Assembly (NCBI RefSeq): GCF_900100205.1
Contig: NZ_FNEQ01000001.1
Location: forward strand, 992,001 to 1,056,000
Direction of reading: 5' to 3'
From: Duganella sp. OV510
Lineage (GTDB): Bacteria; Pseudomonadota; Gammaproteobacteria; Burkholderiales; Burkholderiaceae_D
Length of the DNA: 64,000 nucleotides
The notes beneath the pieces were generated by a model. The model was not told the origin of the DNA. It saw only the letters and a program-made list of their open reading frames with translations, and searched no databases. Made by a program: the position numbers and the translations under genes. Shown one piece after another: positions 13,218 through 17,360 of the stretch. Within the stretch, counting starts at the first letter, position 1, and each line of letters begins with the position of its first letter.

Positions 13218-13253
13218 TTGCTTATTTGCTTATTTGCCTATGTGCTTATTTGC
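13218..13253. repeat. Short tandem repeat, 8-bp unit, 4.5 copies
   Basis: The unit TTGCTTAT (plus strand) is repeated from 13218, two copies perfect and two with one mismatch each, plus a half copy. It covers the end and stop codon of motB and the first part of the gap before the CheZ-like gene. On the coding strand it reads as repeated GCAAATAA. Unit changes would alter spacing in 8-base steps without changing MotB beyond its last residues. Confidence 0.8.
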
Positions 13254-14202
13254 GGACAGGCGGGCCGGCCGGCTTGGCCTGGGCGGCAGCCGCAGGTGCG
13301 ATCTCGCCGGCATCCTCGACGTCGCCAACCTCGATCTTGCGGCCGTCGCGCAGCACACTGTCTTCGGCGCGCTTGTTCATCACCACGATGCTGATGCGGC
13401 GGTTGATCGGATTGAACGGATCGGCCTTGTCGAGGTTGATGGCCGAGGCCAGCCCCACCACGCGCAGCATCTTGGCATCCTGCATGCCGCCAGCGATCAG
13501 CTCGCGGCGCGAGGCGTTGGCGCGGTCGGCCGACAATTCCCAGTTGCTGTAACCGGCGTCGCTCATGTAAGGCGTCGAGTCGGTGTGGCCGGACAAGGTG
13601 ATGCGGTTGGGCACATCGTTCAGCACGAAGCCGATCTCGTGCAGGATTTCCTTGGTGTACGGTTGCAGCTCGGCCTTGGCCAGCGCGAACATCGGACGGT
13701 TCTGCTCGTCGACGATCTGGATGCGCAAGCCTTCGCTGGTGATGTCCAGCAGCAGCTGTTCCTTGTATTTCTTCAGCAGCGGATTGGCCTCGATCTTGTT
13801 CTCGATGCGCTCCTTGAGGTTTTTCAGGCGCTGGTTCTCTTCCGCTTCCAGCGCTGCCTTGGCGGCGGTCAGGTTATAGGTCTTCTTGACCTGCGGATCG
13901 TCGCTGGCCTTGACCTGGCCGTCGGTGCGGGTCAGGTCCTTGCCGCCGCCCTTCAGGATCGAGGAGCTGTCGCCGCTGCCGGAACCGCCGGACATCGCCA
14001 CTTTTAGCGGCGTCTTGAAGTATTCGGAAATGCCGTTAAGGTCACCCTTGGTGGTCGAGCCGAGCAGCCACATCAGCAGGAAGAAGGCCATCATTGCCGT
14101 CACGAAGTCGGCGTAGGCAATCTTCCAGGCGCCGCCGTGGTGACCGCCGCCATGCTTCTTGATGCGCTTGACGATAATCGGCCGCAGGCCCTCTTCAGCC
14201 AT
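13246..14202 (-). CDS. motB: Flagellar motor stator protein MotB
   Basis: MotB is the peptidoglycan-anchored half of the proton-driven stator. The 318 residues begin with a basic cytoplasmic segment, then one transmembrane helix (WKIAYADFVTAMMAFFLLMW) that contains the proton-carrying D32. A plug and linker region follows, and the C-terminal OmpA-like peptidoglycan-binding domain starts near residue 150 (LSGHTDSTPYMSDAGYSNWE, ELSADRANASRRELIAGG). It is 37 bases downstream of motA. Its stop codon lies inside an 8-bp tandem repeat. Confidence 0.97.
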   Translation of the reverse strand: MAEEGLRPIIVKRIKKHGGGHHGGAWKIAYADFVTAMMAFFLLMWLLGSTTKGDLNGISEYFKTPLKVAMSGGSGSGDSSSILKGGGKDLTRTDGQVKASDDPQVKKTYNLTAAKAALEAEENQRLKNLKERIENKIEANPLLKKYKEQLLLDITSEGLRIQIVDEQNRPMFALAKAELQPYTKEILHEIGFVLNDVPNRITLSGHTDSTPYMSDAGYSNWELSADRANASRRELIAGGMQDAKMLRVVGLASAINLDKADPFNPINRRISIVVMNKRAEDSVLRDGRKIEVGDVEDAGEIAPAAAAQAKPAGPPVRK

Positions 14203-14239: not shown

Positions 14240-15100
14240 TTACTTCGATTTGGATTTCTTGATGTGGTCTTCCAGCTCGTTGAAGGACGGACGCTCGGTC
14301 GAGTACAACACTTTGCGGCCGAATTCCACTGCCAACGCCGGCGCATAGCCGTTCAGGCTGGCCAGCAGCGTGACTTTCACGCACTGGTACATCTTGGTCG
14401 ACTCTTCCAGCTTCTGCTCCAGCAGACTGGCCAGCGGACCGACGAAACCGTAAGCCAGCAGGATGCCGAGGAAGGTGCCGACCAGCGCGTGAGCGATCAG
14501 GATACCCAGCTCGGCCGGCGGCAGGCCCACCGATTCCATCGTGTGCACCACGCCCATCACCGCCGCCACGATACCGAAGGCCGGCATGCCGTCGCCCAGC
14601 CTGGCGATGGCATGCCCGGGTGCGGCGCCCTCGTGGTGGTGGGTTTCAATTTCGATATCCATCAGGTTCTCGATCTGGAACGCATCCATATTGCCGGACA
14701 CCATCAGGCGCAGGTAATCGGTCATGAATTCGACGATGTGGTGGTCTTCCAGCACGCTTGGGTACTTGCTGAATAGCGGGCTCTGCTCCGGGCTATCGAT
14801 GTCGCCTTCGATCGACATCAGGCCCTCCTTGCGCACCTTGGACAGCACGTCGAACAGCAGCGACATCAACTCCATGTACAGGTCTTTGGTGTAGCGCGAG
14901 CCCTTGAACAGCGTCGGCAGCGCAGCCAGCGTGGATTTCAGCGTCTTGCCGTTGTTACCGACCAGGAAAGCGCCAAAGGCGCCGCCACCGATCATGACCA
15001 GCTCCAGCGGCTGGAACAGCGCGGCCAGATGCCCGCCACTCATGGCGTAGCCGCCGAACACGCCGACGCAGACCACTACATATCCGATGATGACTAACAA
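14240..15100 (-). CDS. motA: Flagellar motor stator protein MotA
   Basis: MotA forms the pentameric proton channel with MotB. I place the start at TTG 15098-15100, giving 286 residues beginning LVIIGYVVVCVGVFGGY, because family members start exactly there and a GGGGAG site lies 10 bases upstream. The frame stays open further upstream but without homology. Four membrane segments are visible, along with the cytoplasmic loop (RYTKDLYMELMSLLFDVLSK) and the P-A-x-G region DGMPAFGIVAAVMGVVHTM that contacts the MotB Asp. The long upstream gap carries a hairpin that separates it from the methyltransferase gene. Confidence 0.95.
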   Translation of the reverse strand: MLVIIGYVVVCVGVFGGYAMSGGHLAALFQPLELVMIGGGAFGAFLVGNNGKTLKSTLAALPTLFKGSRYTKDLYMELMSLLFDVLSKVRKEGLMSIEGDIDSPEQSPLFSKYPSVLEDHHIVEFMTDYLRLMVSGNMDAFQIENLMDIEIETHHHEGAAPGHAIARLGDGMPAFGIVAAVMGVVHTMESVGLPPAELGILIAHALVGTFLGILLAYGFVGPLASLLEQKLEESTKMYQCVKVTLLASLNGYAPALAVEFGRKVLYSTERPSFNELEDHIKKSKSK

Positions 15101-15122
15101 GGTGTGCTGACTCCCCAGAGCG

Positions 15123-15158
15123 AAAACCGGCCGAATTGTGACTAAGCGGGCCGGTTTT
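15123..15158 (-). terminator. Terminator-like inverted repeat upstream of motA
   Basis: AAAACCGGCC pairs with GGCCGGTTTT across a 16-base loop, with four T residues on the leftward strand and six on the rightward strand. It lies between the methyltransferase stop (15233) and the motA start (15100). It would partly insulate motAB-che from flhDC transcription, so motA probably has its own promoter or is controlled by read-through. Confidence 0.5.
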
Positions 15159-15232
15159 TTCAAGAATTTACATATAGAACTACAATAGCCTGACTAGGGG
15201 GCGAGGGGCAAGTGAATAACGTCAAATGATGC

Positions 15233-16015
15233 TTAAAAGTACCATATATAGAGGGGATTCTCTCCTGCTGTGGCACGAATGATGCTATCTGGCGTTCTTT
15301 CCTCAATGACAAATTCATAGCTTACGAGCATCGAACCAGCAGCCATTTCCGCGCTCGCCTTGCGCCACAATCCCGGCATGGCAGCTGGCGACAGGTAGGC
15401 GAACACCAGGTCGAACTGACGGAAATCAAGATTTTCATAGTCGCCGCGCATGAAACGGGCGCGACTGCCGGTCAGCCGCGCCCGCAGCCAGCTATATAAC
15501 CAGGGCAGCGGCGCCAGTTCGATACCGATCGCCTCGGCGTCCGGGCGCACGCGCGCCATGTATAGCGTAAAGCCGCCAAGGCCGCTGCCGATATCGACCA
15601 CGCGCGGCGGCTTGTCCGCCGGTAGCAATTGGCGCACCGCGTCCCACACGGCCGGCCCGGACGGGTAGTAAGGCACTTGCGTGCGGAAGGTCGACCAGTA
15701 CCAGCCCAGCAGCAGCAAAAAGCCGGCGCCGAACAGCCAGGACGGCAGCTGCAGCGCGAGCGTGGTCAGCAGCGCCAGCGGGAACAGCAGCTGGATCGCG
15801 CGCCACCAGGCTGCCAGCGCCAGCTTCCAGGTGATCAGCGCGGCCAGCAGGCCCTGCACGACGGCCAGCGTCAGATAATCGGTGGGTAAACGGAAACTGG
15901 CCATCAGGTACAGGATGGCCAGGGTCAGCGGCAATGCACCGCACTGGATCAGCATAGCCCGCACGGCAGGCGCGCGGAGGATGCGTTGAATGTAATTGAT
16001 ATACGTTTCAGTCAC
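15233..16015 (-). CDS. Membrane-anchored class I SAM-dependent methyltransferase
   Basis: With the GTG start at 16013-16015, seven bases after flhC, the protein has 260 residues. Residues about 20-115 form four hydrophobic helices (MLIQCGALPLTLAILYLMAS; LAVVQGLLAALITWKLALAA; LLFPLALLTTLALQLPSWLF; GAGFLLLLGWYW). The rest is a Rossmann methyltransferase with SAM motif I VVDIGSGLGGFTLYMA, the acidic IGIELAPLPW, and FDLVFAYLSPAAMPG. An upstream start overlapping flhC is possible. The acceptor is unknown; the membrane anchor suggests a lipid, quinone-like or membrane-protein substrate. It is embedded between flhDC and motAB, which normally adjoin each other. Confidence 0.85.
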   Translation of the reverse strand: MTETYINYIQRILRAPAVRAMLIQCGALPLTLAILYLMASFRLPTDYLTLAVVQGLLAALITWKLALAAWWRAIQLLFPLALLTTLALQLPSWLFGAGFLLLLGWYWSTFRTQVPYYPSGPAVWDAVRQLLPADKPPRVVDIGSGLGGFTLYMARVRPDAEAIGIELAPLPWLYSWLRARLTGSRARFMRGDYENLDFRQFDLVFAYLSPAAMPGLWRKASAEMAAGSMLVSYEFVIEERTPDSIIRATAGENPLYIWYF

Positions 16016-16022
16016 GCGGGCA

Positions 16023-16571
16023 TTATGCCGCGATTGCCTCGGCTTCGCGCGATTTTTTGGTCTTGCCGGCACGCGAAGGCATGTGGCACAGGCCGCAGAC
16101 GTAGCTGCCGTTCAGGTCCATGGCGTTGACCACGAACTTGCCCTGGCACTTGCCGCATGGCGCAGTTTCCAGCATCTTGCTGCTGAAGAAGCGCACCAGC
16201 GTCCAGGCGCGGGTCAGCGACAGCAGCGGCTCTTCGCCCGGCTCCGGCGGCATTTGCTCCAGGTAGAGCTTGTACGCCTTCATCACCGCTTCGACACCGG
16301 TGGCGCCGGCATGCGTCACCAGGAAGCTGTGGATGTTGATGAACAGCGAGGAGTGGATATTTGGCTGCCAGGTCAGGAACCAGTCGGTCGAGAAAGGCAG
16401 CATGCCTTTCGGCGGCGACACGCCCCTCAGCTCCTTGTACAGCTTGAGCAGGCGTTCGCGCGACAGCGACACTTCCGATTCCAGCAGTTGCAGGCGGGCG
16501 CCCAGCTGGATCAATTCGATGGCCAGCTGAATTTCCTGGGCTTCCGACACAACACTCTTCTTGGCGGCCAT
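16023..16571 (-). CDS. flhC: Flagellar master transcriptional activator subunit FlhC
   Basis: FlhC joins FlhD in the FlhD4C2 activator of class II flagellar promoters. I choose the ATG at 16569-16571 ([17 protein letters not shown]), giving 182 residues, rather than one six codons upstream that lacks family support. The zinc site is seen as four cysteines in [10 protein letters not shown] and VCGLCHMPS near residues 136-160. The region [18 protein letters not shown] is highly typical of the family. It starts 18 bases after flhD and ends 7 bases before the methyltransferase gene. Confidence 0.96.
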
Positions 16572-16589: not shown

Positions 16590-16907
16590 TTAAACGATTT
16601 CTTCGACTGGCTGGCCGGCCATCAGGATGGCGGCGTGCGACTGGGCCAGAACGCGGTCTTTATTGTAGTTGGTCAGCATCGACAGGATGGCGCTGTCGTC
16701 GAAGCGGAAGCGGGCCAGCATCATATTGCCGCCTGCCAGCTTGAGGATTTGTGCGTTGCTCATGCCTTCGATCAGGTCGGCGATTTCAGCAGCGATGCCC
16801 AGACGGAAAATCGCGGTGACTTTATCGGCGCGGATCATCTGCTGAGCCAGCATCAGGTAGCTCAGGTTGGCGTCGCGAATTTCAGCCATCATATCGTTTG
16901 CGGTCAT
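16590..16907 (-). CDS. flhD: Flagellar master transcriptional activator subunit FlhD
   Basis: The ATG at 16905-16907 has a strong AAGGAG site and gives 105 residues beginning MTANDMMAEIRDANLSYLML, the normal FlhD length. The frame stays open upstream but is not homologous. Conserved segments are LAQQMIRADKVTAIFRLGI and RFRFDDSAILSMLTNY. It is the first gene of the leftward motility cluster. The 568-base AT-rich region upstream carries repeats and palindromes and is where nutritional and stress control of motility would be expected to act. Confidence 0.96.
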   Translation of the reverse strand: MTANDMMAEIRDANLSYLMLAQQMIRADKVTAIFRLGIAAEIADLIEGMSNAQILKLAGGNMMLARFRFDDSAILSMLTNYNKDRVLAQSHAAILMAGQPVEEIV

Positions 16908-17175: not shown

Positions 17176-17246
17176 CATCTAAACCGGTAACGGCAGTCTT
17201 TTGGAGAACTTTAGGGTTTTAACGAAAAAAATTTAAAAATTTTTTG
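17176..17246. repeat. Direct repeat copy 1 in the flhD-kynU region
   Basis: Starts with CATCTAA, then CGGTAACGGCAG, a variable 6-base stretch, a near-identical GG-GAACTTTAGGGTTTT block, and an A-rich then T-rich tail. It aligns with copy 2, which begins 108 bases further on. The conserved core is about 45 bases. The A/T tail is a possible nucleoid-protein binding tract. Confidence 0.75.
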
Positions 17247-17283: not shown

Positions 17284-17360
17284 CATCTAAGAACGGTAAC
17301 GGCAGGGTTTAGGGGAACTTTAGGGTTTTTTTGAAAAAAAATCGAAAAATTTTTAAAAAA
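17284..17360. repeat. Direct repeat copy 2 in the flhD-kynU region
   Basis: Same organisation as copy 1: CATCTAA, CGGTAACGGCAG, the GGGGAACTTTAGGG block and an A/T-rich tail ending at a run of A. It is slightly longer than copy 1 in the tail. It lies about 115 bases upstream of the kynU start codon. Confidence 0.75.

Follow-up and report, generated by a model that had tools for sequence, protein, structure and literature searches.

A gene that stands between flhC and motA in the 64,000-nt stretch of DNA analysed here (the window) encodes a predicted membrane methyltransferase (MT), which we regard as a long-standing, conserved companion of the flagellar stator genes, a stator link that is well supported across the order. 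The gene order, the co-inheritance with motA, the fold class and the conserved SAM-site motif were directly established. Whether MT is an ancient flagellar-motor accessory, namely a membrane-anchored aKMT-like protein methyltransferase that would modify MotA/MotB and tune the stator, we consider an even call.

The flhDC-MT-motAB locus

Inspection of the open reading frames, with identities assigned by Pfam and NCBIfam, revealed the minus-strand gene order flhD, flhC, MT, motA, motB in the window, a Duganella as judged by its nearest relatives. The genes are as follows:

16590..16907, minus strand, flhD (PF05247, E 3.9e-44)
16023..16571, minus strand, flhC (PF05280, E 1.4e-86; PRK12722)
15233..16015, minus strand, MT, the membrane methyltransferase gene (260 aa, GTG start at 16015)
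14240..15103, minus strand, motA (TTG start taken at 15103; TIGR03818, E 1.1e-120, above the cut-off)
13246..14202, minus strand, motB (PRK09041, E 1.2e-134)

With the end of flhC at 16023 and the GTG of MT at 16015, 7 bases lie between the two genes. The earlier note had placed a four-helix membrane methyltransferase at exactly this distance 3' of flhC, and the reading frame, the Pfam assignment and the AlphaFold model bear this out, coordinates included. Besides, the same genome carries a second MotA homologue at G000:C16:464420-465265 (350.8 bits, above the family cut-off), and the homologue search found one MT only.

MT combines a predicted four-helix membrane domain with an aKMT-like methyltransferase domain

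The AlphaFold model of MT, computed from a 20-row alignment (A1) of the window protein and related loci (mean pLDDT 85.5, pTM 0.70), comprises four long helices (residues 16-40, 47-64, 69-87 and 92-111) preceding a Rossmann domain that spans residues 121-259 or so, the helix/domain junction at residues 111-115 being poorly predicted. The four transmembrane helices are thus predicted within residues 16-111, and the seven-beta-strand methyltransferase domain at about residues 113-260. Positive-inside counts were uninformative for the topology of MT, as the loops are too short; the catalytic domain is probably cytoplasmic, since the number of helices is even and SAM is needed. MT was assigned to the class I methyltransferases by PF13649 (E 4.4e-7, over the cut-off), and D141, G143, G145, G147, G164, E166 and P210 are among the residues invariant in A2, a profile and alignment of 35 diverse MT homologues. 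PF13649, A2 and the model together revealed a seven-beta-strand Rossmann fold with SAM motif I and an acidic motif II.

The best PDB matches of the MT profile were aKMT, an archaeal protein-lysine methyltransferase from Sulfolobus islandicus (5fa8, E 5.6e-18; 5jwj, 3.2e-16), and 5bxy from Salinibacter ruber (4e-14), which its depositors named 'RNA methyltransferase'; phosphoethanolamine methyltransferases followed as the next family (E 9e-9). The whole catalytic domain aligns with aKMT (5fa8, 5fad, 5jwj), over profile positions 113-262. Foldseek with the MT model likewise put the aKMT/5bxy group on top, and VIA-align 2 gave Z scores of 21.0 for 5fad, the top structural match (rmsd 2.3 over 151 residues, 22% identity), 20.9 for 5bxy (26% identity across the MT domain) and 20.6 for 5fa8; the row after these scored 16.9. 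By profile and Z score, MT is therefore nearer to aKMT than to other class I methyltransferases with solved structures, with the exception of 5jwj, an NMR model of aKMT whose Z of only 16.3 (VIA-align 2) is in the range seen for other methyltransferases. In aKMT the chain is no more than the catalytic domain (156-162 residues modelled), and the solved chain of 5bxy is likewise confined to the domain (158 residues), whereas MT adds a four-helix N-terminal membrane domain and is encoded by a motAB-linked gene.

The curated model prot_lys_mtase_Arch (NF041081) gave the window MT 14.3 bits against a cut-off of 200, while 20 of the 35 MT homologues match it at E <=0.01 (best 1.1e-5). Because the score lies below this cut-off, we call MT aKMT-like and not a member of NF041081. 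Neither FliB, the flagellin lysine methylase, nor CheR was among the 11 Pfam families found for MT at E up to 1, and no curated phospholipid N-methyltransferase model was among the 18 NCBIfam families at E <=1, a result that still leaves room for a lipid substrate. Our best reading is that MT is a membrane-anchored aKMT-like protein methyltransferase which is new in its four-helix anchor and its link to the stator.

Two mitochondrial enzymes offer a comparison by description. In two reviews, FAM173B (ATPSc-KMT) is reported to methylate the c-subunit in the c-ring of ATP synthase and FAM173A (ANT-KMT) the ADP/ATP carrier (adenine nucleotide translocase), both being aKMT-like with a putative transmembrane anchor (PMC9006661; PMC10238732), and aKMT itself is described as a broad-specificity enzyme (PMC9006661). 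As described there, both are lysine methyltransferases of the aKMT-like kind that are anchored in the membrane and have energy-coupling proteins of the inner membrane as targets, a likeness that MT would share. They differ in being mitochondrial and in having the c-subunit and the ADP/ATP carrier as substrates, and their architecture with a single transmembrane anchor is not that of MT, which has four long helices compared with the one putative transmembrane domain given for FAM173B in PMC9006661.

MT co-occurs with motA across the order

A sample of 200 genomes of the order was searched with the A2 profile (MT at >=150 bits) and with TIGR03818 (motA). MT was detected in 112 and motA in 133 of the 200 genomes, with 109 genomes carrying both genes, three MT alone, 24 motA alone and 64 neither (Fisher p 3.7e-28, calculated over related genomes, which are not independent), and MT and motA occur together in 33 of the 51 sampled families. 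The 21 families that are mixed for motA comprise 37 genomes with both genes, three with MT alone, 20 with motA alone and 36 with neither, yielding a stratified (Mantel-Haenszel) p of 9.6e-7 with G309 scored as lacking motA; in the 15 of these families with any MT, the corresponding counts are 37, 3, 6 and 21.

The three genomes with MT alone look largely like assembly gaps: G309 carries a piece of motA at a contig edge, MT is where the G299 contig breaks off, and the completeness of G245 is 84%. Family f3 runs contrary to the association (four genomes with motA alone, one with MT alone), and motA without MT was found in families f4, f9, f10, f22, f31 and f48. As 24 of the 133 genomes with motA have no MT, MT is dispensable for having a stator.

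Position of MT relative to motility genes

Among the 109 genomes with both genes, MT lies 3' of motA at a distance leaving room for motB in 65 (22 families), just upstream of motA in 11 (4 families) and beside motA on the opposite strand in one, while the other 32 have MT either farther than 4 kb from motA on the same contig (10) or on another contig (22). A same-strand position less than 4 kb from motA is thereby found in 76 of the 109 genomes, and in the loci that were read motB is the gene that separates motA from MT. Other motility genes are also found next to MT, in several cases even where MT is over 4 kb from motA or on a different contig (L133, L144, L162, L173, L175, L251). A FlhB-family gene (PF01312) stands beside MT in L162, L184 and L251, directly before it in L162 and L251; MT follows flhC in L133 and L144, a motB in L173, and a second MotA-family gene together with a MotB-like one in L175. 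In L159, L165 and L176, all outside the window's family, flhDC lies upstream of motAB, yet MT comes after motB and not after flhC. No flagellar neighbours were seen by eye in 13 loci of families f20, f24, f37, f42 and f49 whose MT is likewise remote from motA, several of these loci being only 3.7 kb long.

Beyond the order, a class sample of 274 genomes contained 19 with an MT match at E <=1e-15, two of them in the order; G407, G422, G559 and G596 are four weak class-level matches. The 13 further full-length cases of the class were all fetched, and motB directly precedes MT in six of them, motAB does so with rsgA (named by eye) in between in one, and neither arrangement was found in six. In Pseudomonas matsuisoli (L040), the genes are arranged as motAB, rsgA, MT, orn, where rsgA, MT and orn were named by eye.

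Two further neighbours were observed. An HDOD-domain gene (PF08668) follows motB-MT in two distant lineages (L170, 3776-5191; L241, 4893-6332), and the reading frame at the equivalent position in L173 had no Pfam match. In family f24 (L140, L146, L148, L149), MT either overlaps the end of a DJ-1-like gene or directly adjoins it (PF01965 for L149, by eye for the other three) and lies on a different contig from motA.

Because motAB stays with MT across the order, MT likely belongs with the stator and not with the master regulator. FlhDC was considered as the primary functional partner and rejected, as MT lies mostly behind motB once the window's family and a few relatives are set aside. The earlier note had supposed that MT, placed behind the master regulator, is either relevant to motility or simply rides along; the motility link is supported by co-occurrence and position, the likely context being the stator instead of FlhDC.

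flhC-MT-motA is the usual order in the window's family

MT had also been taken for an insertion between flhDC and motAB genes that are normally adjacent. In the window's family, an MT match at E 0.001 was obtained for 158 of 195 genomes, and a strong one (E <=1e-37) for 138, of which 132 hold a same-strand MT directly behind flhC. The six remaining genomes are G043, where MT lies elsewhere, and five whose flhC position was not among the matches listed, including G029 with MT on the opposite strand about 2 kb from flhD (L087). The order flhC, MT, motA was read in 69 of 69 loci of L001-L039 and L041-L070, where some genomes are counted twice from two collections, and in 34 of the 40 loci L071-L110.

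In 13 fetched family loci without MT (L111, L113-L124), flhC adjoins motA. Tblastn searches of these loci returned weak right-strand matches to the ends of MT in the flhC-motA gaps of L123 (3771-3925) and L111 (2086-2157), with best E values of 0.017 and 0.007, respectively, among the matches listed; chance matches elsewhere in L113, L117 and L119 have E values of 0.23 to 0.79, again among the matches listed. The matches in L123 and L111 are likely MT remnants, so the absence of MT there looks like loss. Since flhC-MT-motA is the usual order of the family, and since two MT-less genomes carry likely remnants, we reject the insertion reading.

Coupling, constraint and putative regulatory elements

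The gap between motB and MT has a median of -1.5 nt, with the two genes overlapping in 20 of 40 loci, and that between flhC and MT a median of 25.5 nt, with <=30 nt in 68 of 116 loci; starts were chosen via alignment, so that single gap values are approximate. Co-expression of MT with flhDC is plausible from the short flhC-MT gaps. Median dN/dS values over 15 pairs were 0.22 for MT, 0.068 for motA and 0.067 for flhC, which demonstrates that MT is under purifying selection and evolves about three times faster than motA.

Four candidate regulatory elements were recognised in the window:

about 15123..15158, minus strand, hairpin CCGGCC/GGCCGG between MT and motA, in a 61-nt stretch that folds at -17.1 kcal/mol
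15182..15211, minus strand, promoter-like TTGCCC-18-TATTGT upstream of motA
17188..17213, minus strand, proximal sigma-28-like promoter, TAAAGTTC-N11-GCCGTTA, about 306 nt upstream of flhD
17297..17322, minus strand, distal sigma-28-like promoter, TAAAGTTC-N11-GCCGTTA, about 415 nt upstream of flhD

An identical stem occupies the hairpin position in nine of the 33 loci scanned (L002-L007, L015, L019, L022); altered stems were seen in other Duganella loci and none in L010 and L016. As to the terminator-like hairpin of the earlier note, the inverted repeat and its fold are present, but a terminator proper is unproven, as no U tract follows the stem and the hairpin is absent from the list of the terminator scan. 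It is possibly a weak terminator or attenuator. Within the MT-motA intergenic region, 16 of the 18 regions aligned from related genera retain TATTGTAG (absent from L008 and L091), and the -35-like half of the promoter-like element is more variable than TATTGTAG.

Both tandem elements upstream of flhD sit within a 61-nt direct repeat, and their layout, TAAAGTTC-N11-GCCGTTA, is that of sigma-28 promoters. Where 500 nt of sequence 5' of flhD could be examined (128 loci, some from genomes represented twice), at least one such element occurs in 64 loci and two in 44. The pattern TAAAGTTN-N(10-12)-GCCGNTA matched three times in the 6.4 Mb genome, compared with two matches in the reversed control; two of the three lie upstream of flhD and the third between an FlgA and an FlgM gene (named by Pfam). 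The textbook sigma-28 form with GCCGATA was not enriched in this genome (four matches vs six in the reversed control). The sequence pattern suggests FliA feedback on the flhDC master operon. Given the elements upstream of flhD and of motA, flhDC and MT may form a single unit boosted by sigma-28, and motAB may additionally be transcribed from a promoter of its own.

Search for a substrate lysine in MotA and MotB

The N-terminal tail of MotB is basic and conserved, with KRIKK at residues 12-16, and represents a candidate target. Close to the membrane, the cytoplasmic portions of both proteins are rich in lysine (K12, K15, K16 and K27 of MotB; K52 and K55 of MotA). We compared lysine conservation between stators from genomes with and without MT (125 vs 32 rows for MotA, 108 vs 32 rows for MotB), leaving out L040, L084-L090, L112 and L125-L128, where the MT state is unsure, as well as identical rows and rows of odd length; 20 of the 23 motA-only genomes outside the family were taken, G200, G365 and G378 being left out. 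K55, K112 and K281 of MotA and K15/K16 of MotB are better conserved in the presence of MT, as are many non-lysine columns, and the KRIKK-type tail is kept in many stators of genomes without MT. A tree of 118 MotA+MotB rows requires at least eight changes of the MT state but offers only four independent contrasts. The comparison thus yielded candidates and, over these rows and four independent contrasts, no specific signal of MT-dependent lysine conservation.

Proposed function and alternative readings

We infer catalysis, lysine as the acceptor, MotA/MotB as the substrate and an effect on the motor. The four helices would keep the catalytic domain of MT at the inner membrane, on its cytoplasmic side. 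There the domain would methylate, with lysine as the likeliest acceptor, a cytoplasmic segment of the stator close to the membrane, either the loops of MotA or the basic N-terminal tail of MotB. MotA and MotB would be made from the same locus as MT, and their methylation could affect ion-channel plugging, recruitment or torque, so tuning stator assembly or torque. Such stator methylation may be likened to that of the ATP synthase c-ring by FAM173B and of the ADP/ATP carrier by FAM173A. The narrower proposal, that MT is a dedicated stator lysine methyltransferase acting on a membrane-proximal lysine of MotA/MotB in 33 of the 51 families sampled from the order and in part of the remaining class, we put forward tentatively and at somewhat less than an even chance; the aKMT/5bxy fold class also includes RNA and small-molecule enzymes.

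The association with motA cannot by itself tell the stator from the flagellum in general, and MT could be a flagellum-specific protein methyltransferase whose substrate is another membrane-near protein of the motor or export apparatus (FlhB, FliF, FliG), as the FlhB-family gene adjoining MT in L162, L184 and L251 might indicate. We consider this unlikely, as motAB is by far the commonest neighbour of MT (76 of 109 genomes, same strand, within 4 kb) and the MT of L175 adjoins a second MotA-family gene. It is less likely still that MT binds SAM or has lost catalysis and serves as a stator assembly factor or chaperone that uses the fold for binding. A membrane anchor and faster evolution than that of MotA would suit such a protein, and an accessory protein for stator units, as proposed here for MT, has a precedent by description in FlgX, a stator chaperone in Campylobacter according to PMC6686046; however, the glycines of the SAM motif, D141 and E166 are invariant in the 35 diverse homologues, as expected of an active enzyme.

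The membrane anchor and the class I fold would also be compatible with methylation of an inner-membrane lipid or a small molecule needed by the motor, and MT has weak profile similarity to cyclopropane-fatty-acid synthase (NCBIfam, E 1.2e-5, 24.4 of 600 bits) and to phosphoethanolamine methyltransferase (E 9e-9). Protein-lysine methyltransferases rank first, nevertheless, and align over the whole MT domain, and a tight link to motA would be odd for a general lipid enzyme, which makes this reading very unlikely. A modification of FlhD/FlhC or a regulation of flagellar expression by MT would fit the short flhC-MT gaps inside the family, but it is highly improbable given that MT lies mostly behind motB outside the family, even where flhDC is upstream of motAB (L159, L165, L176). 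The least probable case is that of a passenger without a role in motility. No phenotype was reported among the matches listed in open-access PMC text, and MT lies far from flagellar genes in some lineages; on the other hand, MT tracks motA within families (p 9.6e-7), is associated with motility genes in several separate ways and is under purifying selection. The reading that we retain is that of a membrane-anchored protein methyltransferase acting on MotA/MotB.

The flagellar stator is among the best-studied molecular machines. Among the matches listed in open-access PMC text, there was no report of a stator-modifying enzyme, of stator methylation or of the MT gene. With MT and motA occurring together in 33 families of a single order, the usual models may be missing a layer of motor assembly or control. 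Should the proposed function hold, methylation by related enzymes anchored in the membrane would be common to two different rotary ion machines.
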